DNA of 57,113 nucleotides from an uncultured bacterium (GCA_902775025.1 CACYKP010000018.1:1-57113), one strand, 5' to 3'; counted from the first letter of the stretch, positions 2 to 45,270 are shown. Numbers and translations are program-made. Notes: generated from the letters alone by a model not told the origin.

Positions 2-115
2 GATATGGATTTGAATAAGTTAGAGACTGAACGAACCGCATTAACAACAGAGTACGATTCCGTAAAGAAAGTAATACAGGATAATATCGACAGAACGTTT
101 AAGATATTCTCCTAG
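2..115 (+). CDS. C-terminal end of an MGMxASQAR-family coiled-coil protein (partial)
   Basis: Only the last 37 codons are in the window. The reading frame ends in TAG at 113-115. The peptide contains LETERTALTTEYDSVKKVIQ and ends FKIFS, which aligns without gaps to the C-termini of the proteins at 35713 and 38269 (LDTERNALNTEI..VKKVIQD, ending FKTFSG). It is therefore the tail of a third, more diverged paralog of that family. This end is a charged helix, predicted coiled coil. Function unknown. A hairpin terminator follows. Confidence 0.75.
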   Translation, partial: DMDLNKLETERTALTTEYDSVKKVIQDNIDRTFKIFS

Positions 116-4318: not shown

Positions 4319-7300
4319 GTGTTTATAAATAAAATTAACGGAATTGCGCAATCCCAATTAGGCTTTAAATCACAAAGTCATAAAGTTAATGATGTAGGCG
4401 GAACTATTGTAACGTTTAATTATCCTTATGATTATAATAACGAAACTTGTGAAGTTGAATTATACAAAGTTATTAAGACTGATAAGCTTAACTATAAATT
4501 ATTAAATAATAACCCTGTAGTTATTCCTCTTAAACCTGAAGGCGTTTCTGTTGATTTACAAAAAGAAGCTAATATTGGTAAAGACGAACCTTATATTCAA
4601 GTTATAGTAAGAAAAGACAAAAAAACAGGTAAAGAAATATGGCGCGGTGCAGATACTGGAGTAAAGCTTCATATGGAAAATGGAGAACTTGTTCACAGAT
4701 ATCATTATGATCCGGCAAGTATTCAAGCAGAATATACTCCCCTAAATCCTGATGGCAGTCAAAAATTTGATAAAAATGGCAATCCTATAGTAAATAAATT
4801 TAATTATAATTCTTCAATTGAACTTCAAGGTTCAACATTGAAAGAAGATAAATATACTTTAATTACTCAAAACGGTACGCATCCAACTGTTAATGGTCCT
4901 GCAATTTTAGCAATGCCTGATACACTTGCTCCGGGATACAGATATAGAGGCTTTAATGAAAATAATACAGGTGAAATTGTTTATGAACCGGAGCGTCAAT
5001 TACATGGTGAATCAGTTATAAGAACTGTATCAAACACTAGCGGTGGAAGTTTGGCCGGCGTCGAAGCAAGTATATCTAAATTTAAAGAACATAATATTAA
5101 AAAAATTCCGACAACACCTTTTGCAAACGGTGATAATAGAACTTCTCACGGTTATTACAATAAACATAATAAACAAATTCAAAGTAATATGGGTAATACG
5201 GAAAATTTTGATTCTTTAATGAATGCAGAGTTTAGAAATGGTATGAATCACGTTTTTGATGCGACTCTGACTTCAGAAGGTATTGAAGGTGTTCATGTCC
5301 GTTACGCGCTGCGTTGGGGCGAACAAGCGCAAACATCAAAATGGTTCAGAATGAACGGTTTAAAAGATGCAGGTATCGGCTTTGGTGTAATACCGACAGA
5401 TGCTAAAAATTTCAGGCACAGAGTTATTAACCCGCCGTATTTATATGAAAAGCAATCAAACGGTACATATAAAAAAGTGGTTAATGATAAATATAACCCT
5501 AATCAAGAAACACTGATGCAAATATATGATGGTTCACAAGTTACTGATGAACAAATTAATCAACTTGATAAACCAATTGATAGATATAAAGACTTAACTG
5601 CTGGCAAAAAACTTGATATATGTACTTATGAGGATACTTTAGTAAATTATATATTTGAAATTAATCCAAATGAATACGATAAAAATATCAATAAAATAAA
5701 TGATTTGATAAAAAATGAAGGAAAAGAGATTACTCTAGATAGTCCGGAAGGTTCATTAATAGCAACTCACATGTCAAACTTTAATGTAAACAAGACAAGC
5801 GACGGTTATGTTGCTTGGGATGACAACCCTGATATGATTAAAATGAACTATGGCATTTCAGCTTATGATGAGATGGAATTGCAAGCTATATCTGACAGCG
5901 CAGAAAGGCAATATGAACGTAATTTAAGAGTAATTGGTTCAAAAGAAGTTCGTGATATGGCGGTGCAAACAGGTATATATTGGGCAGATAAAGCGAAAAC
6001 GGCACATACTATATACACTGTTCAAACTATAGGAAATGCTAAGTCAGCAGAAAAAATAAATAAACTAATAGAAGAAGGAAAATTGCCTGAAGAATTAAGA
6101 GTTTCGCAAAACGTCATTGATAATATTCTAAACGGAGAATATAATCTTGCTCCAAAAGGTCAACTAAGCAAAGATGATTTAACAGTAAAATCATTAATGA
6201 AACTTCCGCTTGATACATTGGAATTTGGTGAAAATACGACGGGTGTGTTGTCTACTTCGTATTTTATTAATTTAGCAACTTCTGATGAGCAAATAGGTGT
6301 ATCAAGATTTGATTTAATGAAGCAAGGTAACCCTCATCTTCTTAAAACTTATGAAAATGTTTACAATAATGTAAATAAAATGTTTAATAATGAATTGAAA
6401 GATTTTGCTCATTCTGTAATAAATAAAGTTAATGAAACATCAAACGAACCGTTAGTTGATTCTCAAGGTAATTATACTGAGTATGGTGAATATGTTATTG
6501 ATTTGCTTGGAAGAAATATCGCTAAATATGCTTTATTAAAATCATTATCAGGTGATAAATTTGCTTATAAACAATTGTCAAACGGTACATTAACATATGA
6601 TTACGATAATATAAAAAATGCAACTACTTTAAAAGCATTAGGAATTAAAGCTAATAATCCTACAGAAGAAGCAGAAATGCTCCAAAAGAAAATTAAAAAC
6701 GGATTAAAAACTCTTACCGAACAAGATGTGAATGTTGTAGCTAATTCTATTTCATCAATAATAAAAGGCACTGACAGAGATACATTTAGAATAGCAGAAG
6801 CTCTTGTTGACAGATCCGGTTTAGGTTTGGATTTTCGTCTTGATGCTGCAAAAGATGTTATGGATATGGATTCGGTAAGAAATAGGTATGCTGATTTTGA
6901 TGACACTTGGACCGATTTAATTAATTTCTGGAGTAAGTTTGTTCAAGGAGTAAAATCAGTTAATCCTCATTCATATATAGTTGCTGAAATGACTGATGTT
7001 GCTGATGTAATGCGAGATAATTTCGGCGGAGCTTCTTCTTGTCCGTATAACGGTTGGACTAATGTTAACGGAGTTAAATATAACGGTGAACCAGATGCAA
7101 TGGCTAAATTCTTTAATGAAACAGGAATAACATCAGAAGCTGCTTATTCATATTTCTTTACTGAATTGTTAGTTAACTTTTCTAAAGAATTTGAAAAAGG
7201 TGAATGGGGTTGTGATACTCATGATGCTTTTAAGAGTAAATATGATTTATTAATAAGAACAAGAAGTGCTGATTATTTGCGTAATTTATATACCTTCATA

Positions 7301-9178
7301 GGTAATCATGATAAAACAAGAACTATTCACGGTTTAGCTATTGATATGTCTTTGTTCCACTCAACATTAATGCATGACCAAGTTCAGTTTTGGCAAAATA
7401 GAGATAAAAGATATGAAGTCATAAAACTTTTATCAGGAGTAAATAATATCAATAATGCTCCTTTAGAGTTGAAGCTAAATGCTGATAATTTGGATTATTT
7501 CAGAACTGTTAGCACAAGGGCTGTTGCACAATCAAAACTTCTTTCAGAATCAATACAAGAAGATTTGAAAGGTAAAATAAGTGATAGTGATATTAACCTA
7601 TTAAAAGAAGCTTTAATTGATCTTGCAAATGGTAATTATTTAAACAGCAAAACTACTGAAAAAATGCAACGAATTAATATTCCGCAATTACAAAGTATTG
7701 AAAGTGTGGTACAAGAGATTGCTCGAATTGCACAAAAAAATGGTAACGTTTTATCTGATTCAGATTTGCAATTAATAATTAATAATGCTAAAAATCTAAA
7801 TTTTGAAAACTATATGGTACATGGTGATTTTGATTGGACAGATGAAACCGGAAAACAAAATAAATCATATATTAGAGAATTATTAGGAGATATTCCTGAA
7901 GATAAAATGTCAGAATATAGTTTATATACAGTTCAACTTGCTCGAATGATAAAAGATGCTTCAAACTCATTACCAAATTCTGGTGCTGTAACATCAGCAT
8001 TAAAAGAATTCGTGATGACATATAATCGAGCTAAAATTAGTGAAAATATGACCGGTTTCAGGATGTTTGAAGATCCTAAATCCGCAAGAAGAAAAAATAG
8101 TTATGCTGCCAATGATTTTAGGACGGCATTAGAAGAAGCTATTGAACAAGCTGAATATAAATCAGGACAAAAAATTAAAAATAAAGAATTAATTATTACG
8201 ACGGTTTATAATTCTATTACTGAACCTGCAATAAAAAAACAAGCAATGATGCTTTCATTTTTAAGTGCAATGTGTGGCATTCCTACTGTATATGCAGGTG
8301 ATGAATATGGCGATACCGGATATGAAGATAAGGCAAAAAATACTTGGGTAAGAAATAGAAATGCAAGCAGATTGTCGGAAATAGAAAGAAATACTGAATA
8401 TGGAAAAATGATGAAACGTAATGAAGAGTATACATATTCAGCATTAAATAATAAAGCTAATGTGTCTGCGCTTAAAAACGGCACTCCATATAGTATGGAC
8501 GTTTTAGCTCAAGGTAAAACAAGAGACGAAATAAATAAACGTATTGAAGAAATTAATCAAATCTGTAATAAAGAAAACGGACTTGATGAAAATAGTAAAA
8601 TAGTAAAAGATTTGCGTAAAGAACAAGAATTATTGCGTCTAGAACTAGCCAAAGTTGCATTTATGATGCAAAATACTGATGGAGATATGGCAGTATCGGT
8701 GTTTAATGCCGGTGGTATTGAACATGGAAACAGAGTGAACTATTTTGATAAATTCGGCATTCAAGATAAAGAAAAAAGGTTAAAATTCTTTGAAGAGAAT
8801 AATATTGAATCAATAAATATCGATAATCCGTATATTCCTATACAAGAAAAAACAACTATGGATGCTATTCTTATGGGAGCAGGAGTTGCTGTTCCTGTTG
8901 GAACTATATTTATCAATGAAGATGTCAGAGACAAAGCAAAATATATTGTAGAAAAAATTGGTGATAAACTTGGTATTGTCAGAAAAAATGCTGACGGGAA
9001 AACCGGCAAAATTGTGTTAGATGGCAAAACAGCTAAGAATGGTGTTATGATATTAAGGAAATTAAAAAATATTGGATTTAAAGGAAGTTTTAATCAACAG
9101 TATAATTTTACTAAAAATGCTTACCAAGTTAATAGTGCGCATCAAAAAGGTAAACAATTGTCATTAATTTCTCGATAG
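4319..9178 (+). CDS. Giant GH13 (alpha-amylase family) protein, 1619 aa
   Basis: A GTG start at 4319 follows AAGGAG by 9 nt. GH13 landmarks are clear: GGSLAGVEASISKFKEHNIK and SHGYYNKHNKQ near the start of the barrel, FRLDAAKDV (nucleophile Asp842), VAEMTDV (acid/base Glu890), FIGNHDKTR (Asp998) and SAMCGIPTVYAGDEYGDTGY at the barrel end. Region I, normally DVVxNH, reads FDATLT, so the conserved Asn-His pair is missing. The protein is about three times the usual GH13 length, with long insertions between motifs and a C-terminal tail with one hydrophobic stretch (DAILMGAGVAVPVGTIFI). No signal peptide is visible. Probable alpha-glucan hydrolase or transglycosylase; specificity unknown. Confidence 0.85.
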   Translation: MFINKINGIAQSQLGFKSQSHKVNDVGGTIVTFNYPYDYNNETCEVELYKVIKTDKLNYKLLNNNPVVIPLKPEGVSVDLQKEANIGKDEPYIQVIVRKDKKTGKEIWRGADTGVKLHMENGELVHRYHYDPASIQAEYTPLNPDGSQKFDKNGNPIVNKFNYNSSIELQGSTLKEDKYTLITQNGTHPTVNGPAILAMPDTLAPGYRYRGFNENNTGEIVYEPERQLHGESVIRTVSNTSGGSLAGVEASISKFKEHNIKKIPTTPFANGDNRTSHGYYNKHNKQIQSNMGNTENFDSLMNAEFRNGMNHVFDATLTSEGIEGVHVRYALRWGEQAQTSKWFRMNGLKDAGIGFGVIPTDAKNFRHRVINPPYLYEKQSNGTYKKVVNDKYNPNQETLMQIYDGSQVTDEQINQLDKPIDRYKDLTAGKKLDICTYEDTLVNYIFEINPNEYDKNINKINDLIKNEGKEITLDSPEGSLIATHMSNFNVNKTSDGYVAWDDNPDMIKMNYGISAYDEMELQAISDSAERQYERNLRVIGSKEVRDMAVQTGIYWADKAKTAHTIYTVQTIGNAKSAEKINKLIEEGKLPEELRVSQNVIDNILNGEYNLAPKGQLSKDDLTVKSLMKLPLDTLEFGENTTGVLSTSYFINLATSDEQIGVSRFDLMKQGNPHLLKTYENVYNNVNKMFNNELKDFAHSVINKVNETSNEPLVDSQGNYTEYGEYVIDLLGRNIAKYALLKSLSGDKFAYKQLSNGTLTYDYDNIKNATTLKALGIKANNPTEEAEMLQKKIKNGLKTLTEQDVNVVANSISSIIKGTDRDTFRIAEALVDRSGLGLDFRLDAAKDVMDMDSVRNRYADFDDTWTDLINFWSKFVQGVKSVNPHSYIVAEMTDVADVMRDNFGGASSCPYNGWTNVNGVKYNGEPDAMAKFFNETGITSEAAYSYFFTELLVNFSKEFEKGEWGCDTHDAFKSKYDLLIRTRSADYLRNLYTFIGNHDKTRTIHGLAIDMSLFHSTLMHDQVQFWQNRDKRYEVIKLLSGVNNINNAPLELKLNADNLDYFRTVSTRAVAQSKLLSESIQEDLKGKISDSDINLLKEALIDLANGNYLNSKTTEKMQRINIPQLQSIESVVQEIARIAQKNGNVLSDSDLQLIINNAKNLNFENYMVHGDFDWTDETGKQNKSYIRELLGDIPEDKMSEYSLYTVQLARMIKDASNSLPNSGAVTSALKEFVMTYNRAKISENMTGFRMFEDPKSARRKNSYAANDFRTALEEAIEQAEYKSGQKIKNKELIITTVYNSITEPAIKKQAMMLSFLSAMCGIPTVYAGDEYGDTGYEDKAKNTWVRNRNASRLSEIERNTEYGKMMKRNEEYTYSALNNKANVSALKNGTPYSMDVLAQGKTRDEINKRIEEINQICNKENGLDENSKIVKDLRKEQELLRLELAKVAFMMQNTDGDMAVSVFNAGGIEHGNRVNYFDKFGIQDKEKRLKFFEENNIESINIDNPYIPIQEKTTMDAILMGAGVAVPVGTIFINEDVRDKAKYIVEKIGDKLGIVRKNADGKTGKIVLDGKTAKNGVMILRKLKNIGFKGSFNQQYNFTKNAYQVNSAHQKGKQLSLISR

Positions 9179-9186
9179 TTATATTA

Positions 9187-10533
9187 TTAAATATTAACGC
9201 CGGACATCATATTAATTAATGTATCAATAGTATTCTGCATGCTAACACTATCTGTTGTTTTTTGTTGAAGGAAAGCATTAATTTGCGGCATCATTTCTAT
9301 AGCAACATCCAATCGGGGGTTTGTTCCAGCTTGATACATGCCGACATCGATTAAGTCTTTATTTTCTCTATATAATGATAATAAAGTTCTCATTTTAGCC
9401 GCCGCTTCTTTATGTTCAGGAGATGCAATCGATGACATCAAACGTGATATACTACCTAAAATATCAATCGCAGGGTAATGGTTTGCTTCTGCTACTTTTC
9501 TAGATAAGAAAATGTGTCCGTCTGTAATACCACGTACTGTATCTACAATCGGATCGGTTATATCATCACCTTCCATTAAAACAGTATAAAAAGCAGTAAT
9601 TGAACCTTTTTCACTATTACCTGCTCTTTCAAGAACTTTTTGCAACCAAGAAAATATAGATGGCGGATATCCTTTCATTGTTGGAGGTTCTCCGATAGAT
9701 AGTCCTACTTCACGTCCGGCCATTGCACAACGAGTAACTGTATCAGTCATTAAAAATACTTTTTTCCCTTGGTCACGAAAATATTCGCAAACAGCAGTCG
9801 CAGTGAGTAAACATTTTTGTCTTATAAGTGGCGGCTGATCTCCGGTTGAGCAAACCAGAACTGAACGTTTCATACCTTCAGGACCTAAAGCGTCTTCCAC
9901 AAATTCTTTTACCTCTCTACCACGTTCACCGATTAGTGCAACAACGTTAACATCAGCATCAGAGTTCCTTGCTATCATACCTAAAAGTGTACTTTTACCG
10001 ACACCGGAACCGGCAAAAAGTCCCATACGCTGTCCGCAGCCAAACGTTAAGCAAGAATCTATCGCACGAACACCTGTAGAAAACATTTCTGTGATTATTG
10101 GTCTTTCAAAAGGCCCAGGTGGCGGTCCGTCTGTCGGGCGCCATGTTGCATTTGTTAAATCGAGCGGTTTACCGTCAATCGGTTCTCCCATAGGATTTAT
10201 TAATCTTCCCAATAAAAAATCCCCGACAGGTATTATAATTGGACCGCCTGTTGTTGTAACAAGGCTTCCTTGACCAATACCAGCACCATCATACAAAAGT
10301 AAAAGTTGTGCAACATCACCTTTAAACGCTACTACTTCTGCAGGTTTTTTTTCGCCGTTAGCAGCTTCTATATAACATAAATCACCAATCTTTAAGCCCG
10401 GCAGTTTTACTTCAACGGTTAAACCAAGCAGTTTTGATACGCTGCCTTTATATTGATATAAATCAACATTTGCGATTTTGTTATGTACCTTTTCTTTTAT
10501 ATTATTTATATATTCTTGATTAACACCTTCCAT
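9187..10533 (-). CDS. fliI: FliI/SctN-family export ATPase
   Basis: This is a rotary-type ATPase of the flagellar/type III export family. It has the FLLGRLINPMGEPIDG block, Walker A GLFAGSGVGKST, VVALIGERGREVKEFVE, Walker B KVFLMTDTVTRCAMAGREVG, and GYPPSIFSWLQKVLERAGN, typical of FliI/YscN rather than F1. I prefer the ATG at 10533 (MEGVNQEY) because an extended -10 (TGATACAAT, 10541-10549 reverse strand) ends 7 nt upstream and there is no ribosome site; an upstream in-frame start at 10590 would lie before this promoter. No other flagellar or type III gene is nearby, so whether it serves a flagellum or another exporter is open. Confidence 0.88.
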   Translation of the reverse strand: MEGVNQEYINNIKEKVHNKIANVDLYQYKGSVSKLLGLTVEVKLPGLKIGDLCYIEAANGEKKPAEVVAFKGDVAQLLLLYDGAGIGQGSLVTTTGGPIIIPVGDFLLGRLINPMGEPIDGKPLDLTNATWRPTDGPPPGPFERPIITEMFSTGVRAIDSCLTFGCGQRMGLFAGSGVGKSTLLGMIARNSDADVNVVALIGERGREVKEFVEDALGPEGMKRSVLVCSTGDQPPLIRQKCLLTATAVCEYFRDQGKKVFLMTDTVTRCAMAGREVGLSIGEPPTMKGYPPSIFSWLQKVLERAGNSEKGSITAFYTVLMEGDDITDPIVDTVRGITDGHIFLSRKVAEANHYPAIDILGSISRLMSSIASPEHKEAAAKMRTLLSLYRENKDLIDVGMYQAGTNPRLDVAIEMMPQINAFLQQKTTDSVSMQNTIDTLINMMSGVNI

Positions 10534-10540
10534 ATAATTC

Positions 10541-10549
10541 ATTGTATCA
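10541..10549 (-). promoter_or_regulatory. Extended -10 element giving a probably leaderless fliI mRNA
   Basis: On the reverse strand TGATACAAT matches TGnTATAAT in all but one base, and its 3' end is 7 nt from the ATG at 10533. No good -35 is seen. Confidence 0.5.
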
Positions 10550-10619
10550 TATTTTAATAAATATAACCTAAAAAGCAACTTGCAAAACAAATATTTTTAT
10601 TTTATTATTAACTGAGTAA

Positions 10620-21942: not shown

Positions 21943-22371
21943 ATGGCAATCGCAAGTTTAGCAGCATTAATTAGAACTGAAATGGATATAAGCTTTGCTA
22001 CAAGAGAATTAGATAAATTATCTCTTGAGATGGATGCTAATACTGCAAAGTTAGAAGACCAGCAAAAATGGGAAAAGAAATGGGAAAAAGCATTTGAAGA
22101 CGGACAAGATGATGATAAAGAAATAAATTCATGTGGTTATCATAAAGCAAAAGGCGAACATTGGTCTGATGCTAAAGCTGATGCTTATGCTCACGCAAAA
22201 GTCAAAAAATATGATGAGGACCTTCTTGATGAATTAACAGAATTAGATATGGATTATGATTCCAGAAAGACATTATTAGAAGCTGAAATAACAGAAAAAA
22301 CTGCAGAAAAAGATTCATGGAAACAAGAAACATCAACAGAATTCCAAGATACACATCTGCTCGGACAATAA
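21943..22371 (+). CDS. Small coiled-coil protein of unknown function, 142 aa
   Basis: The protein has no signal peptide. A helical N-terminus (MAIASLAALIRTEMDISFAT, then RELDKLSLEMDANTAKLEDQ) is followed by a short polar centre with two possible metal-binding residues groups (CGYHKAKGEHW). A second helix (LTELDMDYDSRKTLLEAEIT) runs to a short C-terminal tail. This helix-centre-helix plan, and the pattern of the last helix, resemble the proteins at 35713, 38269 and 46718. Its promoter carries the shared box. It converges on folD. Function unknown; structural or exported protein is my guess. Confidence 0.72.
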   Translation: MAIASLAALIRTEMDISFATRELDKLSLEMDANTAKLEDQQKWEKKWEKAFEDGQDDDKEINSCGYHKAKGEHWSDAKADAYAHAKVKKYDEDLLDELTELDMDYDSRKTLLEAEITEKTAEKDSWKQETSTEFQDTHLLGQ

Positions 22372-35585: not shown

Positions 35586-35658
35586 TTGTAAACTTTTGTA
35601 ACAATTTTTGTAAAAATCCTAAAGTTTTGGAAAAAAATGCCGATATACATAGTATAGA
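35586..35658 (+). promoter_or_regulatory. Triple TTGTAA box and promoter of the 703-aa gene
   Basis: TTGTAA occurs at 35586, 35596 and 35608. On the reverse strand 35585-35602 reads GTTACAAAAGTTTACAAT, a full match to the cyanobacterial HLR1 consensus as I recall it. TGCCGATATACATAGTATAG follows at 35638-35657. Confidence 0.6.
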
Positions 35659-35712: not shown

Positions 35713-37824
35713 ATGGGTATGTCAGCATCACAAGCTCGTTTACTTTCATTACAAGCAAGAATGACCGACGTTGAGTATGAAGGTCAACAAATTAACCAAC
35801 AGAGATTAATGTTATCAAACAAGATGAACGAAGTCATGGAAAAGATGACTAATATGGATGTTCCGACTCCGCCATCAAAACAAGATTTCTTGTACAATAC
35901 CTACAAAGGAAAAACCAGAAACGGTAAAACTGTTAATGCTACTATGAATGATGATGGCACATTCAACTTTACTAAACCTGTAACAGGCAATATTGTTGTA
36001 GATGGCGGCCTTATGGACATAACAAAAGGGGCTGAAATTAAAGGTTCTAAGGCTGATATTCCTAGTACTACATCAGATAGTTATCATAAATGTGAACCGG
36101 GAGAAGATGGTATAAGCCTTAAAGGGGTATACCATGACCTTCATCAATATCAACCCGAAAACTACAAACAAGCATATGGCAAAGAATATAATGCTGCAAA
36201 TAAAAAATTTGATAAGCCGCTTACATCTGCTTATACAGGTGGCGAAGGTACAACTTATGCAACAAAAAAAAGTGAAACAAAAATACAAATTCCTGTGTAT
36301 ACAGACACCAAACTTAAACCTAGTGGATACTATGCAGGTGGTAAATATAGTGGGAAATACTTTGAAAGCGAACCTGTAAAAACAACACAGACTAGATATG
36401 TCCTTAATGGAGAAGAAGTATCATCGGATACGGAAGGTGCAACAGAGGAAACGACGTATTATTTAAATAACGAAGAATGTAATAAAGCCGATTATGATGC
36501 GACTTATTCACCTCTGCATGAAGCGCATAAATTGGAGGTAAAATATACAAATGTATCTATAACTTTTCCGATATCCTCTACTGACTTGGAAACTTTAATT
36601 ACAAATACACAAACACAATATGATACAGATTTAAATGGTTATAAAAATGATGGTACAAAAAAGTATGTATCCTCAGGTAATGCGGATGATAATCCGATTA
36701 ATTTTGATAACTTTGTAACTTCTTTTGAAGATCTTTATACTATTGCATACGATGAATTTGCAGGATTAGAGAATACGCCGGCTACTGCGTTTGATAGTAC
36801 AGCAACATACTGGAGATTCCAACCAGATGAAACCGGTGATGGTTACAATAAAACTAAAAAAGGTAGTGATTTAGTTAAACATAATAATGAGGTACAAGCA
36901 AATTATTCGAAAGATTATTATATTGAAGATGGAAATGGTGGATATAAAAAAGTCAAAGGTTCGGTAGCTAAAGATTATACGGCATATGAAGAAGGTGAAG
37001 GTGATATAAAAATCACAAACAAAGAAATTGATGTACAATCTCTTGAAGGATATTATATATATGATAATCAAAACTTAGCATATTATATAGGAGCTGGCGG
37101 TAAAACTGCCGAAGAAGCAAAAGCATTACTGCTATCTGGCGGTTGGGGGCTTATGAAAAAAAGCAATAGCGGTGATATTAGATGTTCAGATGCAAACTTT
37201 GCATCTGGTGCATCAGTAGGCGGCAATCCGACAATGACAATTGCTGAAGCTAAAGCAAAATATGGCGGTGAACCTAAATTCAGTACCGCATTAAGTGGCT
37301 TAAAACAATCTTTTGGTGAAGATTGCGTAAATGAATGGTCGGTTATAATCAGCACATCAGACACCGGAACATTGTCGTTCAGCTTCTGCAAAACAATTGA
37401 TTTAGCTACAGGTTCAGGTGTCGGCACTGAAAAGAATCTAGGACAAGTAAGAGTTTACAATCCGACTGTCGGCGAGTATGAAGAGACCATTGAAAATGTT
37501 GAAGTTGCTTATGATGAAGGTGGTTATCTGAAGAATATAAAACTTCCTAATGGTGAAATTGTTAATCTCGAAATAGTACAGCAGGTTGACGAAACCAAAT
37601 ATTCTATAGCAATGAACAAATATGAAATCGAAAAAATCGAATATGATAAAGAAGTTAATGAGCTAAATAAACAAACTTCTATCTACCAAAGACAAGATAA
37701 ACAATTAGAACTTAAGTTAACTCGTCTTGATACCGAAAGAAATGCTTTGAATACAGAAATCGATGCAGTTAAGAAAGTTATTCAAGATGCAACCGAAAAA
37801 GGTTTCAAAACTTTCTCAGGTTAG
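35713..37824 (+). CDS. MGMxASQAR-family protein with variable central insert, 703 aa
   Basis: AAAGGAG precedes the ATG. The N-terminal 60 residues (MGMSASQARLLSLQARMTDV, then GQQINQQRLMLSNKMNEVME) and the C-terminal 200 are closely similar to the 320-aa protein at 38269. A Thr/Tyr/Lys-rich central insert of about 370 residues (roughly 110-480) is unique to this one. Both ends are heptad-rich helices; the C-terminus ends TEKGFKTFSG. There is no signal peptide or membrane span. Conserved helical ends round a variable centre recall flagellin, hook or type III filament proteins, but no sequence match to those is claimed. Promoter carries the shared TTGTAA box. Confidence 0.8.
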   Translation: MGMSASQARLLSLQARMTDVEYEGQQINQQRLMLSNKMNEVMEKMTNMDVPTPPSKQDFLYNTYKGKTRNGKTVNATMNDDGTFNFTKPVTGNIVVDGGLMDITKGAEIKGSKADIPSTTSDSYHKCEPGEDGISLKGVYHDLHQYQPENYKQAYGKEYNAANKKFDKPLTSAYTGGEGTTYATKKSETKIQIPVYTDTKLKPSGYYAGGKYSGKYFESEPVKTTQTRYVLNGEEVSSDTEGATEETTYYLNNEECNKADYDATYSPLHEAHKLEVKYTNVSITFPISSTDLETLITNTQTQYDTDLNGYKNDGTKKYVSSGNADDNPINFDNFVTSFEDLYTIAYDEFAGLENTPATAFDSTATYWRFQPDETGDGYNKTKKGSDLVKHNNEVQANYSKDYYIEDGNGGYKKVKGSVAKDYTAYEEGEGDIKITNKEIDVQSLEGYYIYDNQNLAYYIGAGGKTAEEAKALLLSGGWGLMKKSNSGDIRCSDANFASGASVGGNPTMTIAEAKAKYGGEPKFSTALSGLKQSFGEDCVNEWSVIISTSDTGTLSFSFCKTIDLATGSGVGTEKNLGQVRVYNPTVGEYEETIENVEVAYDEGGYLKNIKLPNGEIVNLEIVQQVDETKYSIAMNKYEIEKIEYDKEVNELNKQTSIYQRQDKQLELKLTRLDTERNALNTEIDAVKKVIQDATEKGFKTFSG

Positions 37825-37863
37825 AAAATAAATTCTCTTTACTCTTTTCCTAATATTTATTCT

Positions 37864-37893
37864 GAGAGCTCCAAATTCGGAGCTCTCTTTTTT
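37864..37893 (+). terminator. Terminator of the 703-aa gene
   Basis: GAGAGCTCC (37864-37872), loop AAATTC, GGAGCTCTC (37879-37887) and a T-run. Confidence 0.93.
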
Positions 37894-37906
37894 ATGTAGT
37901 GTCATT

Positions 37907-37950
37907 CGTGGAGCATTCCTCCCCCTCCTAGGGGAGGTTAGGAGGGGTAT
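37907..37950 (+). repeat. Long palindromic repeat, copy E (5' truncated)
   Basis: Only the right half is left: CGTGGAGCATTCCTCCCCC to GGGGAGGTTAGGAGGGGT. Confidence 0.85.
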
Positions 37951-38028
37951 CAACCCGCAAGGAGAAAAGTTATAAGTTACACCATCTTATAGCTATGTTG
38001 ATGATAATTAATTGTCCCTAACGGGATG

Positions 38029-38120
38029 CCACCCACCCCAACCCTCCCTAAAAAGGGAGGGAGTTCTTGTATGCTTAGCGTGGAGCATTCCTCCCCTTCC
38101 AAGGGGAGGTTAGGAGGGGT
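38029..38120 (+). repeat. Long palindromic repeat, copy F
   Basis: A full-length copy with CCACCCACCCCAACCCTCCC at the left and GGGGAGGTTAGGAGGGGT at the right. Confidence 0.9.
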
Positions 38121-38121
38121 A

Positions 38122-38190
38122 ATTATTAACTTTTGTAACAATTTTTTTTTAAAAGCTAAAGTTTTTTGAAATTCTGCCGATATATATAAT
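38122..38190 (+). promoter_or_regulatory. TTAACTTTTGTAAC box and promoter of the 320-aa gene
   Basis: ATTATTAACTTTTGTAAC at 38122-38139 begins 1 bp after repeat copy F. TGCCGATATATATAAT (38175-38190) matches the same element before 35713. Confidence 0.6.
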
Positions 38191-38268
38191 AGTCAAGATA
38201 ATATAAATCTCAACCAAGATAGGTTTATATAAACGAAAAGGAACTAAAGGAAAAAGGAGACCAATAAA

Positions 38269-39231
38269 ATGGGTATGGCGGCATCGCAAGCTCGTATGCT
38301 TTCATTACTTGAAAGAATGAGCGATGTAGAGTTCGAAGGACAACAGATTAATCAGCAAAGGCTGATGTTGTCTAATAAAATGAACGAAGTCATGGAAAAA
38401 TTGACTAACATGGACGTGCCTACACCGCCTTCAAAACAGGACTTCCTATATAATAAATTTTACGGTAAAACAAGAAACGGTAAAAAAATTACGGCTCAAA
38501 TGAATGATGATGGTACATTAAGGATAACAAAACAGAATTCGGGAATGGTTGTAGAAGATACCGGTTTACAAAATATTAACAAAATTGTAACAGATAATGG
38601 TACTGAAATCAGAGTTAACGGTCGTAAAACAATGAGTATTACTGATGCAAATAATAAGTATGGCGGTTCCGATTTGCAAGATGCGTTGACAGGTTTGCGT
38701 AATACTTTTGATTACAAAGATGGCAAATATAACCAAGAAAACTACACTGTTATCATAAATGAAGCAGATAATGGAAAAGTAACTTTTTCATTTTGTTTAA
38801 CAGAAGATTTAAAAACAGGTTCCGGACTGGAAACAGAAAATGACAATGGAATGGTTAGAGTATATACAGCAGTTCATGGTTCTTATGAAGAAGCAATTGA
38901 TGATGTCGAAATAAGTTATGATGCAAAGGGCTATTTAGACAAAGTGTTGCTTCCAAACGGTGAAACCGTTGATATGTCTGTTGAACAGCAAGTAAACGAA
39001 ATTGAATATGACATCGCTGTAAATAAATATGAAATAAAAAAGATTGAATATGATAAAGAAGTCAATGAAATAAACAAACAAACATCTGTTTACCAAAGAC
39101 AGGACAAAATATTAGAGCTTAAATTAACTCGTCTTGACACCGAAAGAAATGCATTGAATACAGAAATCGAAGCAGTTAAAAAGGTTATTCAAGATTCTAC
39201 GGAAAAAGGCTTCAAGACCTTCTCCGGTTAA
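38269..39231 (+). CDS. MGMxASQAR-family protein, 320 aa
   Basis: AAAAAGGAG precedes the ATG. The protein starts MGMAASQARMLSLLERMSDV and shares with the 703-aa protein the QQINQQRLMLSNKMNEVMEK helix, the VPTPPSKQDFLYN turn, a central YGG..L..AL.GL domain, and a near-identical C-terminal helix (LELKLTRLDTERNALNTEIE ending GFKTFSG). It lacks the 370-residue insert and so gives the minimal form of the family. No signal peptide. Tandem arrangement with its paralog suggests duplication. Function unknown; filament-forming or exported protein is a hypothesis. Confidence 0.8.
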   Translation: MGMAASQARMLSLLERMSDVEFEGQQINQQRLMLSNKMNEVMEKLTNMDVPTPPSKQDFLYNKFYGKTRNGKKITAQMNDDGTLRITKQNSGMVVEDTGLQNINKIVTDNGTEIRVNGRKTMSITDANNKYGGSDLQDALTGLRNTFDYKDGKYNQENYTVIINEADNGKVTFSFCLTEDLKTGSGLETENDNGMVRVYTAVHGSYEEAIDDVEISYDAKGYLDKVLLPNGETVDMSVEQQVNEIEYDIAVNKYEIKKIEYDKEVNEINKQTSVYQRQDKILELKLTRLDTERNALNTEIEAVKKVIQDSTEKGFKTFSG

Positions 39232-41109: not shown

Positions 41110-43260
41110 ATGGCAGACGAATTATCAATTCAACAAAAACAACCGAGTACAACCCCTTATGTTACGACAGGTGGTGTTTTAGGTGCAGTTGGAGCAGGTG
41201 CAGCAGCACATTATTATTCACAACCGAAGTATGGTTCTTGGGAAGATATTTTAAAAGACTCAAAAGATGAAGCTACTTTCAGCGGAAAGAAGTATGAAAA
41301 CGTTGAACAGTCTGTCAAAGATGAGATTAAGGCTGCAAATAATGCTGAAGCTGATGCGAAAGCGAAATATAACAAGAAGATGAATGAATACGTTGAAGCT
41401 AATAAAGGCGGTAAAACGGCTGAACTTCCTGCAAATGATAAATCATTACAAGATTTAAAAACTGCTCAGGACAACTTAGCTAACAAACGTGCTGAACTGG
41501 TAAATAAAAAAATTGCGGAACTAACTGCTGAAAATAATAAAACTGTTGATACCGTATCAAGAGATAATGCACAAAAAAGAATGCAAGCAATTATAAAACG
41601 TGTTCAATCTGAGCAAGAAAGCCAAAAAGCAGTCTTCGAAAGAATTAATGAATATATTGCAAATGCAGGCAAGTTAGACAAAGATGGTAAAGCTGTTATT
41701 AGTGATTTAGAAAAAGCAATGGAAGCCTTTGAAAAACAACAAAAAGATATTGATATTGCGAAGAAAATAGTAAATGGTGAATATGATATAGCAAGTTTAG
41801 AAGCAGCTATAAAAAAAGAAACAAATGCTGATAAAAAATCAGCACTACAAAAAAAATTAAATGCATTAAAGGAAATTAAAATTACATACGCAAAGGGTAA
41901 AACAAAAACAATTCCTGTTAATAAAACTCTTTCAAAGAGTGAAATAGAAACATTTAATCATTATATAAAATTAGCAGAAGATTATAACAGTGCAAATTAC
42001 TTAAATGAAGTTGAAATCTTAAAAGGTGTAAAAGGCAGCAAAAAACAAATTGCAGAGGAAATTAAAACAGCTATCATAAATACTCGTTCTTTGAATGAAG
42101 GGATTGATTCTCAAAAAGCAATAGTTGACAAGGCAGTTAAGCAATATTTAGAAGCTAAAAAGGCACTTCCGACACCGGAACAAACTTTTGCAGAATTTAG
42201 AAAAATAGCATCTGATACTGAAGTTGATTTTATTAATAACAATTATGCAAAAAATAAAAATGAAGCAGTAGCTCAAATGAGAAGTGCAATTATAGCCAGA
42301 GAACAAGCACAAATTAATTCTTTAAAAGAAGAATTAAACGAATTAAAATCATTTGAAAAAATTCAGAGATTAAATGAACTTATTGAAAAAGACGGTAACG
42401 TAAAATACAAAGGTAAATTATCAGTTAAAGATTTATTAACTGGAAAAATAGAAATAGATGGCAAAACAACAAAATTAACACTTGCTGAACAAAAAGAATT
42501 AGCTGCACTTAAAGAAGCATTGCAAAATACTAATATAGAAACTCTTACTAAAGCTGAAAATGCTAAAAATATCACAAAAAGAATCGCTGAACTTGACGGA
42601 AAAGAAGGTGAAATCGCTAAGTTGGAAGATAAATTCAACAAAGCTAAAAAGAACCGTGAAACAGTACGCAGATTAGACAGACAATTAGAAGCATTTGCAG
42701 GAAAAGATTACAAGGTAGAAGTTAAAGATGGCAAAGCTCAACTTGTAAAAGCTGATGGTAAAGTATTTGAACCAAAATCAGGTATGAATTTGTCAGGAAA
42801 GATTGCAGCTCCTGAATACCAATGGAAAAAAGAAGATTTGAAGGCATTAGATGAAGCAAGAGCACAATTTAATCCTAAAAAGCTTACAGCAGAAGGAATT
42901 AAAGCAAAAGCAGAAGCAGCTGTTACTGATGAAATGTTAAAGGCAGAAAAAGATGCAGTAGCAAATGCAGAAAATGCAGTAAAGGAAGCTAAATCACAAT
43001 TACCTAAAGTCGAAGCTAAAGATGTTGAAACTTTAAAGAAAGAATTTATTGCAAAAGAAGGTTCGGAAGCTGAATATGTTAAGAAAGAAACCGATGCGGT
43101 AATGAAAGCTTTGAAGGAAAAACACGGTAATTTAGTAAACGAAACAAGAATGAAATTCTTTGAATCAGGCAAAAACTGGAAAATCGCAACAGCAGCAGCT
43201 GCAGGTGCTGTAGTTCTTGGAGCAATAGGTAAATTATTCGCACCAAAAAAAGAAGCATAA
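41110..43260 (+). CDS. Long coiled-coil protein with terminal membrane segments, 716 aa
   Basis: AGGAG precedes the ATG. A Gly/Ala-rich hydrophobic segment (VTTGGVLGAVGAGAAAHYYS, residues 18-37) and a C-terminal one (WKIATAAAAGAVVLGAIGKL, about 690-709) flank roughly 650 residues of Lys/Glu/Ala-rich coiled coil, for example INSLKEELNELKSFEKIQRL. No cleavable signal peptide. It could span the envelope or link two membranes. Not recognised. It shares its promoter box with the MGMxASQAR genes. Confidence 0.78.
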   Translation: MADELSIQQKQPSTTPYVTTGGVLGAVGAGAAAHYYSQPKYGSWEDILKDSKDEATFSGKKYENVEQSVKDEIKAANNAEADAKAKYNKKMNEYVEANKGGKTAELPANDKSLQDLKTAQDNLANKRAELVNKKIAELTAENNKTVDTVSRDNAQKRMQAIIKRVQSEQESQKAVFERINEYIANAGKLDKDGKAVISDLEKAMEAFEKQQKDIDIAKKIVNGEYDIASLEAAIKKETNADKKSALQKKLNALKEIKITYAKGKTKTIPVNKTLSKSEIETFNHYIKLAEDYNSANYLNEVEILKGVKGSKKQIAEEIKTAIINTRSLNEGIDSQKAIVDKAVKQYLEAKKALPTPEQTFAEFRKIASDTEVDFINNNYAKNKNEAVAQMRSAIIAREQAQINSLKEELNELKSFEKIQRLNELIEKDGNVKYKGKLSVKDLLTGKIEIDGKTTKLTLAEQKELAALKEALQNTNIETLTKAENAKNITKRIAELDGKEGEIAKLEDKFNKAKKNRETVRRLDRQLEAFAGKDYKVEVKDGKAQLVKADGKVFEPKSGMNLSGKIAAPEYQWKKEDLKALDEARAQFNPKKLTAEGIKAKAEAAVTDEMLKAEKDAVANAENAVKEAKSQLPKVEAKDVETLKKEFIAKEGSEAEYVKKETDAVMKALKEKHGNLVNETRMKFFESGKNWKIATAAAAGAVVLGAIGKLFAPKKEA

Positions 43261-43818: not shown

Positions 43819-45270
43819 ATGGCTGACAGAATTTTTTCAAATGACGAACTTAGAATTAAAGTGACAGACAGATCTGTAAATAGATCTAAAAAAGGAGAAA
43901 CAGGAGTTTCTTGGGAATTAAAAGACAGATTTCAAGAATGGCTTAAAACGGGTAAAATTTACGAAGTTGACGGAAATGGTGTTTGGGACAAGTATCAAGC
44001 AGATGGTTTAGGTAATAAACTAGCTGAAATACACAAACATGCATTAACAGATGATGCATATTGGAAAAACATGCCAATTGGTAAAGGTATCAAATATAGC
44101 GAAGAAAAAATGATAGAACTTTTAACAGCAGCTGGCTATGCATTACCTGAAAATATCACCCCCGCACCTAACCCAACACCGACACCTAACCCTGAGCCTA
44201 TTATAGGTAAAGACGGCAAAGACGGCGTAGATGGAAAAGATGGCAAGAACGGTAAAGATGGTGCTAATGGTAAAGACGGTAAGAATGGCGAAGACGGCTC
44301 AATTTGGCCGGGAGTTTTTGCCGGTATTGGTGCAGGAGTTTTAACAGGTGTTGCAGCATTTTTAGCATTAAGAGGTAAAGGTAAACAAGCTGAAAAAATG
44401 GCTAAAAAAGCTCAAGAATTAGCTCAAAAAACAAGAAATCAAACTGCTAATATTACTAATAATTTAAGAAATGATGTAAAGAATGTATCTGCAGAAGTAG
44501 ATGCTGTAGGTGCAGAACTTAACAGAACTAGAACTCAAACTGCTAATATTACTAATAATTTAAGAAATGATGTAAACGGAATAAAAGATAAAGAACCGTT
44601 CAAACCGCAAGGCCCTGAAGGCCCGAATCCTCCGCAAGGTCCAAAAGTGCCTGAAGGACCAGAAGGACCTGTAAATCCAAGGGTATATAAACCAATCGAG
44701 CACCCAAACGGTGTAACAGACACTGAACTCGAAACAGCATTAAAAGAGGCTGAAAACGCAGGTGAAAAATTCAAACCTAATACCTTTGCGACATCTGAAA
44801 TGAGCAACGATGGCATTGCTAATGAATTAAAAGAACTTTCAAAACAAACTCAAACTTCTGAAGTAGTTGACAGAACAAATAAATTAAAAGCTGAACTGGC
44901 AAATCGTGGATATGAAGTTGATGCAAACGGTAATGCAGTAAAAAAAGGTGCTAAAGAAGCTGAAGCAAAGGCTAAAGCAGAAGCTGAAGCGAAAGCTAAA
45001 ACAGAAGCTGAAGCAAAAGCTAAAGCAGAAGCTGAAGAAGCAAAGAAAGCTAAAGAGGCAGAAGAAGCAAAGAAAGCTAAAGAAGCTGAAGAAGCAAAGA
45101 AAGCTAAAGAAGCTGAGGAAGCAAAGAAAGCAGAAGAAGCAGCTATACAAGCGAAAAATGCTCAAAAACAAATCTCAGAAATAGAAAAAGCTGTTGATGG
45201 AATATTCGAAAAATTTAAAGGTAATATGTCAAAGAACAGAATTAGAAGAAGGATTTGCAAAAGGTCCTGA
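43819..45270 (+). CDS. Collagen-like surface protein, 483 aa in frame (interrupted by a +1 frameshift)
   Basis: AAGGAG precedes the ATG. Order of parts: a globular N-terminus (1-112), a Pro-rich linker with PNPTPTPNPEP, eleven or so Gly-X-Y triplets (GKDGKDGVDGKDGKNGKDG region, about 133-156), one membrane segment (VFAGIGAGVLTGVAAFLAL), two copies of a QTANITNNLRNDV repeat, a second Gly/Pro stretch (PQGPEGPNPPQGPKVPEGP), and a long Lys/Ala/Glu helix of EAEEAKKAK repeats. In this frame it ends after MSKNRIRRRICKRS, a sequence unlike the rest; the true C-terminus continues in the +1 frame (next entry). No cleavable signal peptide. Cell-surface or envelope-spanning role is likely. Confidence 0.8.
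   Translation: MADRIFSNDELRIKVTDRSVNRSKKGETGVSWELKDRFQEWLKTGKIYEVDGNGVWDKYQADGLGNKLAEIHKHALTDDAYWKNMPIGKGIKYSEEKMIELLTAAGYALPENITPAPNPTPTPNPEPIIGKDGKDGVDGKDGKNGKDGANGKDGKNGEDGSIWPGVFAGIGAGVLTGVAAFLALRGKGKQAEKMAKKAQELAQKTRNQTANITNNLRNDVKNVSAEVDAVGAELNRTRTQTANITNNLRNDVNGIKDKEPFKPQGPEGPNPPQGPKVPEGPEGPVNPRVYKPIEHPNGVTDTELETALKEAENAGEKFKPNTFATSEMSNDGIANELKELSKQTQTSEVVDRTNKLKAELANRGYEVDANGNAVKKGAKEAEAKAKAEAEAKAKTEAEAKAKAEAEEAKKAKEAEEAKKAKEAEEAKKAKEAEEAKKAEEAAIQAKNAQKQISEIEKAVDGIFEKFKGNMSKNRIRRRICKRS

Follow-up and report, generated by a model that had tools for sequence, protein, structure and literature searches.

The described systems closest to the proteins reported here include the flagellar axial proteins flagellin, FlgL and FliD, which combine conserved terminal helices with a variable, beta-rich centre, carry no signal peptide and are expressed from sigma28 promoters. 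The EspA/SctA filament and SctF needle proteins likewise consist of a pair of helices, to which a head may be added, and are exported without a leader. Here, we analyzed a 57,113-nucleotide stretch of DNA from an uncultured bacterium (GCA_902775025.1, CACYKP010000018.1:1-57113; the window) and two proteins of 703 and 320 amino acids encoded within it. Both belong to a family found throughout the order Gastranaerophilales and probably act as exported subunits, axial or at the surface, of a flagellum-derived, non-rotary type III secretion system (T3SS).

Gastranaerophilales are a common, mostly uncultured gut lineage and relatives of the Cyanobacteria, whose flagellar genes without flagellin were formerly read as decay. 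Basal bodies that persist without a filament are known from Buchnera (PMC8109811). Di Rienzi et al. noted that genes for the filament, cap, junction and L/P ring are missing from the Melainabacteria genome MEL.A1 and took this as ongoing genome reduction; the tree and methods of that study include two flhA genes of ACD20 (PMC3787301). According to a termite-gut study, motility in this order is disputed (PMC5877343). A literature search on this order and type III secretion returned nothing relevant, with subscription journals mostly outside the search.

A protein family with conserved ends and a variable centre

The window encodes two complete members and part of a third:

35713..37824, + strand: 703-amino-acid family member with conserved helical ends and a long central insertion
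38269..39231, + strand: 320-amino-acid family member; AlphaFold2 model with helix 2-46, beta-rich centre at about 60-242 and helix 244-319
2..115, + strand: C-terminal 37 amino acids of a third family member (E 3.9e-6)

An earlier reading of the DNA alone (the sequence-only reading) had described the first two as paralogues without signal peptides, near-identical at their ends and differing by extra central residues, and had noted a third member ending at position 115. These descriptions were borne out, and both open reading frames (ORFs) lie at the coordinates and on the strand it gave. The two proteins are 89% identical at the N-terminal end (residues 1-62) and 86% identical at the C-terminal end (residues 243-320). 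Identity falls to about 50% over the part of the centre that both have, and the approximately 380 extra residues of the longer protein form a single insertion at about residues 107-114 of the shorter one. The third member has no start because the window begins at the first base of the contig. Neither the 703- nor the 320-amino-acid protein has a hydrophobic leader (best 12-residue hydropathy within the first 40 amino acids, 0.5 and 0.9), leaving both with the signal-peptide-free N-terminus sought in a type III secretion substrate. Two shorter proteins, of 142 (gene at 21943) and 264 (46718) amino acids, had been proposed as looser members. This part of the claim found no support: neither was matched by the family profile (E <= 10) or preceded by the family promoter.

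Further members are encoded on contigs 5, 55, 7, 77 and 20 of the same genome (88 contigs), with E values down to 1e-24, and a profile built from 18 members matched all 192 sampled Gastranaerophilales genomes, usually at seven or more places in each. The paralogy is therefore beyond chance. In a phylum sample, all 48 genomes of the order had the family and none of the 69 others did, only three of the latter being from the same class. Members span approximately 108-770 amino acids, with many copies per genome; the flagellin-less, near-complete, five-contig genome G040 has nine, from 108 to about 760 amino acids. In relatives, the shortest members (108-145 amino acids) are barely more than both helical ends, and a DSDGDGLSNxYE-like linker resembling a calcium loop sometimes connects the ends of short members. 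Mean pairwise identity among 67 members was 71% at the N-terminal end and 60% at the C-terminal end, compared with 25% in the centre, where large insertions and deletions occur. Cysteine accounts for 0.47% of family residues versus 1.28% genome-wide (G040). Low cysteine content is usual in exported axial proteins.

Equal-scoring copies lie 17-19 kb apart in several genomes (G052:C2, G064:C3, G044:C2 and G055:C11), and three contigs of the window's assembly break within family genes (the ends of contigs 7 and 77, the start of contig 18). Together, these suggest gene conversion or recombination among copies.

As far as sequence comparison reaches, the family is distinct from flagellin, rod, hook and hook-associated proteins (HAPs). 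Neither window protein matched flagellin (PF00669) or the rod/hook families (PF00460 and PF06429), and none of these was among the commonest families of the 67 members (the 25 commonest for flagellin). When the window proteins were scanned against Pfam and NCBIfam, only coiled-coil noise resulted, including weak SPAM/SpaM-like matches. The best hit of the family profile in a PDB sequence search was VAV at a chance-level E of 0.19.

The sequence-only reading had called for a structure prediction of the 320-amino-acid protein alone. The AlphaFold2 model, made with 67 family sequences, was confident (predicted local distance difference test, pLDDT, 92.4; predicted template modelling score, pTM, 0.67) and places helices 2-46 and 244-319 (76 residues) on either side of a beta-rich centre. 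The predicted monomer has the plan of an axial protein, with conserved terminal helices and a variable centre. Flagellins or flagellar filaments occupied Foldseek ranks 5, 9, 11, 13 and 20. When 999 chains were re-ranked by VIA-align, rows 1-22 were all flagellar axial proteins (Z 9.2 to 6.2), and the first other protein followed at Z 5.1. The top matches were FliD (9gnz, Z 9.2), flagellins (up to Z 8.8), FlgL (Z 8.0) and the FlgG rod (Z 7.7), with the FlgE hook also included. The best flagellin alignment (7sn4) had a root-mean-square deviation of 2.0 A over 106 residues and spanned residues 1-314, taking in both ends. Neither outcome that the sequence-only reading had named as refuting it arose: the ends did not fail to pack together, and no unrelated enzyme family was clearly matched. 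Matches of this kind to a predicted model support the axial plan, short of proof of homology.

Each described system differs from the family in some respect. Flagellin, FlgL and FliD give the best structural matches; unlike them, the family has no detectable sequence similarity to these proteins, occurs where no flagellin is detected and is confined to a single order. The rod and hook proteins (FlgB, FlgC, FlgG and FlgE) match structurally at Z 7-8, and the export machine linked to the family retains true rod genes. However, the family matched no Flg_bb_rod or FlgEFG C-terminal profile, and its centre is far larger and more variable. EspA, SctA and SctF share the two helices, optional head and absence of a leader, but they were not among the listed Foldseek and VIA-align rows (a weak test), had no Pfam match, and no injectisome-type operon was found with the family.

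Sigma28 promoters and a second, motor-less export machine

Both complete window genes are preceded by a sigma28-type promoter:

35620..35646, + strand: sigma28/FliA-type promoter TAAAGTTTTGGAAAAAAATGCCGATAT of the 703-amino-acid gene, an exact match to TAAAGTTT-N11-GCCGATA
38157..38183, + strand: sigma28/FliA-type promoter TAAAGTTTTTTGAAATTCTGCCGATAT of the 320-amino-acid gene

The motif TAAAGTTT-N11-GCCGATAT is the FliA/sigma28 consensus of Escherichia coli, with a slightly changed version in Bacillus subtilis. It starts 93 bp upstream of the 703-amino-acid gene and 112 bp upstream of the 320-amino-acid gene. With TAAAGTTT-N10-12-GCCGATA lying upstream, both genes have the promoter expected of the sigma28 (FliA) regulon. 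No other strict site occurs in the window, and 200 Markov-1 random windows contained none. Genome-wide, 35 strict sites were found against 0 for a reversed-pattern control, including sites upstream of four other family genes. FliD also has a site, at a distance of about 210 bp upstream; those flagellin and FlgL genes of this genome that were tested lack the motif. In loci of other genomes, a looser motif preceded 57 of 91 family genes versus 13 of 944 other genes in those loci, counts drawn from related and hence non-independent genomes. G040 keeps a FliA-like sigma factor; there, the looser motif precedes seven of the nine family genes and is carried by 33 of all 1743 ORFs.

The sigma28 regulon of the window's genome also includes many small, signal-less hypothetical proteins, which are candidates for further T3SS substrates. 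A separate TTTTGTAACAATTT-like element recurs upstream of several family genes, upstream of 38157, and upstream of the 142- and 264-amino-acid genes; the latter two otherwise have in common a different promoter-like stretch (GTGAAATTC...ATACTTTATATATAT).

Profile searches of the 192 genomes found flagellin in 75 and FliG_C in 73, compared with FHIPEP in all 192 and FliF in 190. Presence of PF00771 alone was uninformative because every genome of the order has it, and full-length FHIPEP proteins were instead separated into classes by score. FlhA1 (approximately 860-890 bits) and FliF1 (E about 1e-55) accompany flagellin. FlhA2 (approximately 700-735 bits) and FliF2 (E about 1e-33) also occur in flagellin-less genomes, as a rule as the sole copy. 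The second machine, as marked by FliF2 and FlhA2, is present in nearly every genome. Because the 117 genomes without flagellin keep the family, it is independent of the ordinary flagellum.

The window's genome has both sets. FliPQR-FlhB-FlhA1 is on contig 21, while the second set is divided between contig 20 (FliN/O/P/Q/R2) and contig 15 (FliE2-FliF2-X-FliH2-FlhA2). On contig 15, the position of FliG is occupied by X, a 346-amino-acid protein without a FliG match. The window itself contributes the ATPase:

9187..10590, - strand: FliI/SctN-type export ATPase of the second (non-flagellin) T3SS (Pfam T3SS_ATPase_C, 8e-28)

This ATPase is 84% identical to FliI of G040 and 80% identical to the FlhA2-adjacent FliI of G027. 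The machine of flagellin-less G040 comprises FlgB, FlgC, three FlgG/F-like rods, FliE, FliF, X, FliH, FliI, a FliN-domain protein, FliO, FliP, FliQ, FliR, FlhB and FlhA2. G040 gave no match to FliG, FliM, MotA, MotB, FliC, FliD, FlgK, FlgL, FlgD, FlgH or FlgI when searched with E. coli queries and with own queries; an absence from such single-sequence searches carries less weight than a presence, except for FliG and flagellin, which were additionally profile-tested.

X (L067:12953-13993) and its homologues in all clusters analyzed (314-358 amino acids) lie between FliF2 and FliH2 and have no significant Pfam match; G040 has a second homologue of 230 amino acids. A third FHIPEP homologue of approximately 495 amino acids (L068:1446-3056, with homologues across the order) matches only the cytosolic half of FlhA and is possibly a soluble substrate-docking protein. 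An FHIPEP-like fragment of approximately 215 amino acids occurs at L069:9745-10386.

Family and machine are linked in the genome. Coordinates were available for 50 flagellin-less genomes, and in at least 27 of them FlhA2 has a family gene at a distance of 8-17 kb (median 11.7). Nine loci have the order family gene, 272-amino-acid hydrophobic protein, usually a 90-amino-acid protein, a 107-111-amino-acid mini-member, a divergent gene of about 210 amino acids, two housekeeping-like genes, FliE2, FliF2, X, FliH2 and FlhA2, conserved except for a few insertions and inversions. The first part of this operon recurs away from the machine, with the 272-amino-acid gene adjoining the family in 35 of 80 loci.

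The hydrophobic partner is a Gly-rich protein of 272-287 amino acids encoded 3' of family genes (L024:11066-11929, contig 55). With central hydrophobic stretches, helical ends and no signal peptide, it resembles a T3SS hydrophobic translocator in outline. The predicted model of the 287-amino-acid partner reached a pLDDT of only 41, and a sequence search gave no PDB relative.

Taken together, these data suggest not decay but a conserved T3SS in its own right, with a set of candidate substrates. Like the Buchnera basal bodies, the machine is a flagellum-derived export apparatus retained without a filament (PMC8109811). However, Buchnera has a reduced flagellum; in Gastranaerophilales, some species carry the second machine alongside a true flagellum, and the machine has a linked candidate substrate family of its own. 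In contrast to the reduction proposed for MEL.A1, the genes that remain here make up a conserved and distinct machine, marked by a separate class of FliF and FlhA.

Alternative readings and a proposed mechanism

An unlikely yet credible alternative is that the family members are substrates of the second T3SS without being axial, namely tip, translocator or effector proteins acting on gut protists, host cells or other bacteria. They would then resemble the helical hairpins of LcrV/IpaD with a variable head, the conserved helices serving as export and chaperone region. The many paralogues per genome with unrelated centres fit effectors, some members share an operon with the signal-less, translocator-like Gly-rich protein, and other small signal-less proteins belong to the sigma28 regulon. 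However, conservation extends over the whole of both terminal helices, which fits subunit packing over a short export signal. Furthermore, the structural neighbours are axial and not tip proteins, and the minimal members of 108-145 amino acids are hardly more than two helices.

It is improbable that these are cytoplasmic coiled-coil proteins merely co-regulated by sigma28. Sigma28 regulons are known to include non-flagellar cytoplasmic genes, and the weak coiled-coil matches were the only ones obtained. In contrast, a hypervariable centre, low cysteine content, the calcium-loop-like linkers of short members and linkage to an export machine would all be unusual for cytoplasmic scaffolds.

The least probable reading is that the ordinary flagellum uses these proteins as accessory filament or hook-associated components. 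In its favor are the sigma28 promoters, the fold resemblance and some copies within 2-4 kb of flagellin genes. It is largely refuted by retention of the family in all 192 genomes when flagellin is missing from 117 and FliG_C from 119, and is opposed by the motif-free flagellin and FlgL genes tested in the window's genome.

The axial interpretation proposed by the sequence-only reading is partly supported, by the helical plan, structural rows 1-22, the sigma28 promoters and the linkage to a T3SS in many genomes; at the level of sequence, it gained no match to flagellin, rod, hook or HAP families. Several further points weigh against exported axial subunits. The 67 members matched no Pfam family besides coiled-coil noise, and hhalign gave a probability of 0.1% against both a four-flagellin profile and an eight-sequence rod/hook profile. 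Foldseek alone found no match at E <= 1e-3 (best E 3.7e-3), and Z scores of 6-9 for long helices may, as the tool itself warns, reflect a common helix arrangement. Family members on contigs 5 and 55 of the window's genome have no promoter, and neither window gene is adjacent to T3SS structural genes. Linkage was the basis on which the nine conserved loci were picked, and genomes that are related do not count as independent. G066 and G142 keep family members but show neither FliF2 nor FlhA2, a double absence that one assembly gap would explain because both genes are in one operon. Lastly, a rod crossing the outer membrane without FlgH and FlgI is left without explanation.

For the exported axial subunits we favor, the following mechanism is proposed. 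Sigma28 (FliA) promoters would drive production of the family subunits, which, having no signal peptide, would exit the cell through the second, non-rotary, flagellum-derived machine. This machine would consist of FliE2-FliF2-X-FliH2-FlhA2, FliN/O/P/Q/R2, FlhB, FliI2 and the FlgB/FlgC/FlgG-like rods. Once outside, each subunit would pair its conserved N- and C-terminal helices as a coiled-coil stalk that packs against other subunits into a polymer, in the way that helical domains do in flagellin, hook and rod proteins. The variable centre, which differs among paralogues and species, would point outward. The family may thereby build an undescribed surface structure.

A broader proposal is more tentative, and we hold the balance to be tipped slightly against it: that an order-wide, non-rotary, flagellum-derived machine, beside or in place of the flagellum, builds its own appendage from new hypervariable axial proteins, under a sigma28 regulon that includes further secreted proteins. 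If true, this would add another use of T3SSs to the flagellum and the injectisome, assign a testable role to a large, as yet unnamed family of proteins in this order, and offer a way into how these bacteria contact hosts, protists or neighbors.

Other open reading frames in the window

Two large ORFs in the window have no Pfam family, at 4319-9178 (1619 amino acids) and 41110-43260 (716 amino acids). A 483-amino-acid protein with a weak collagen-repeat match is encoded at 43819-45270.
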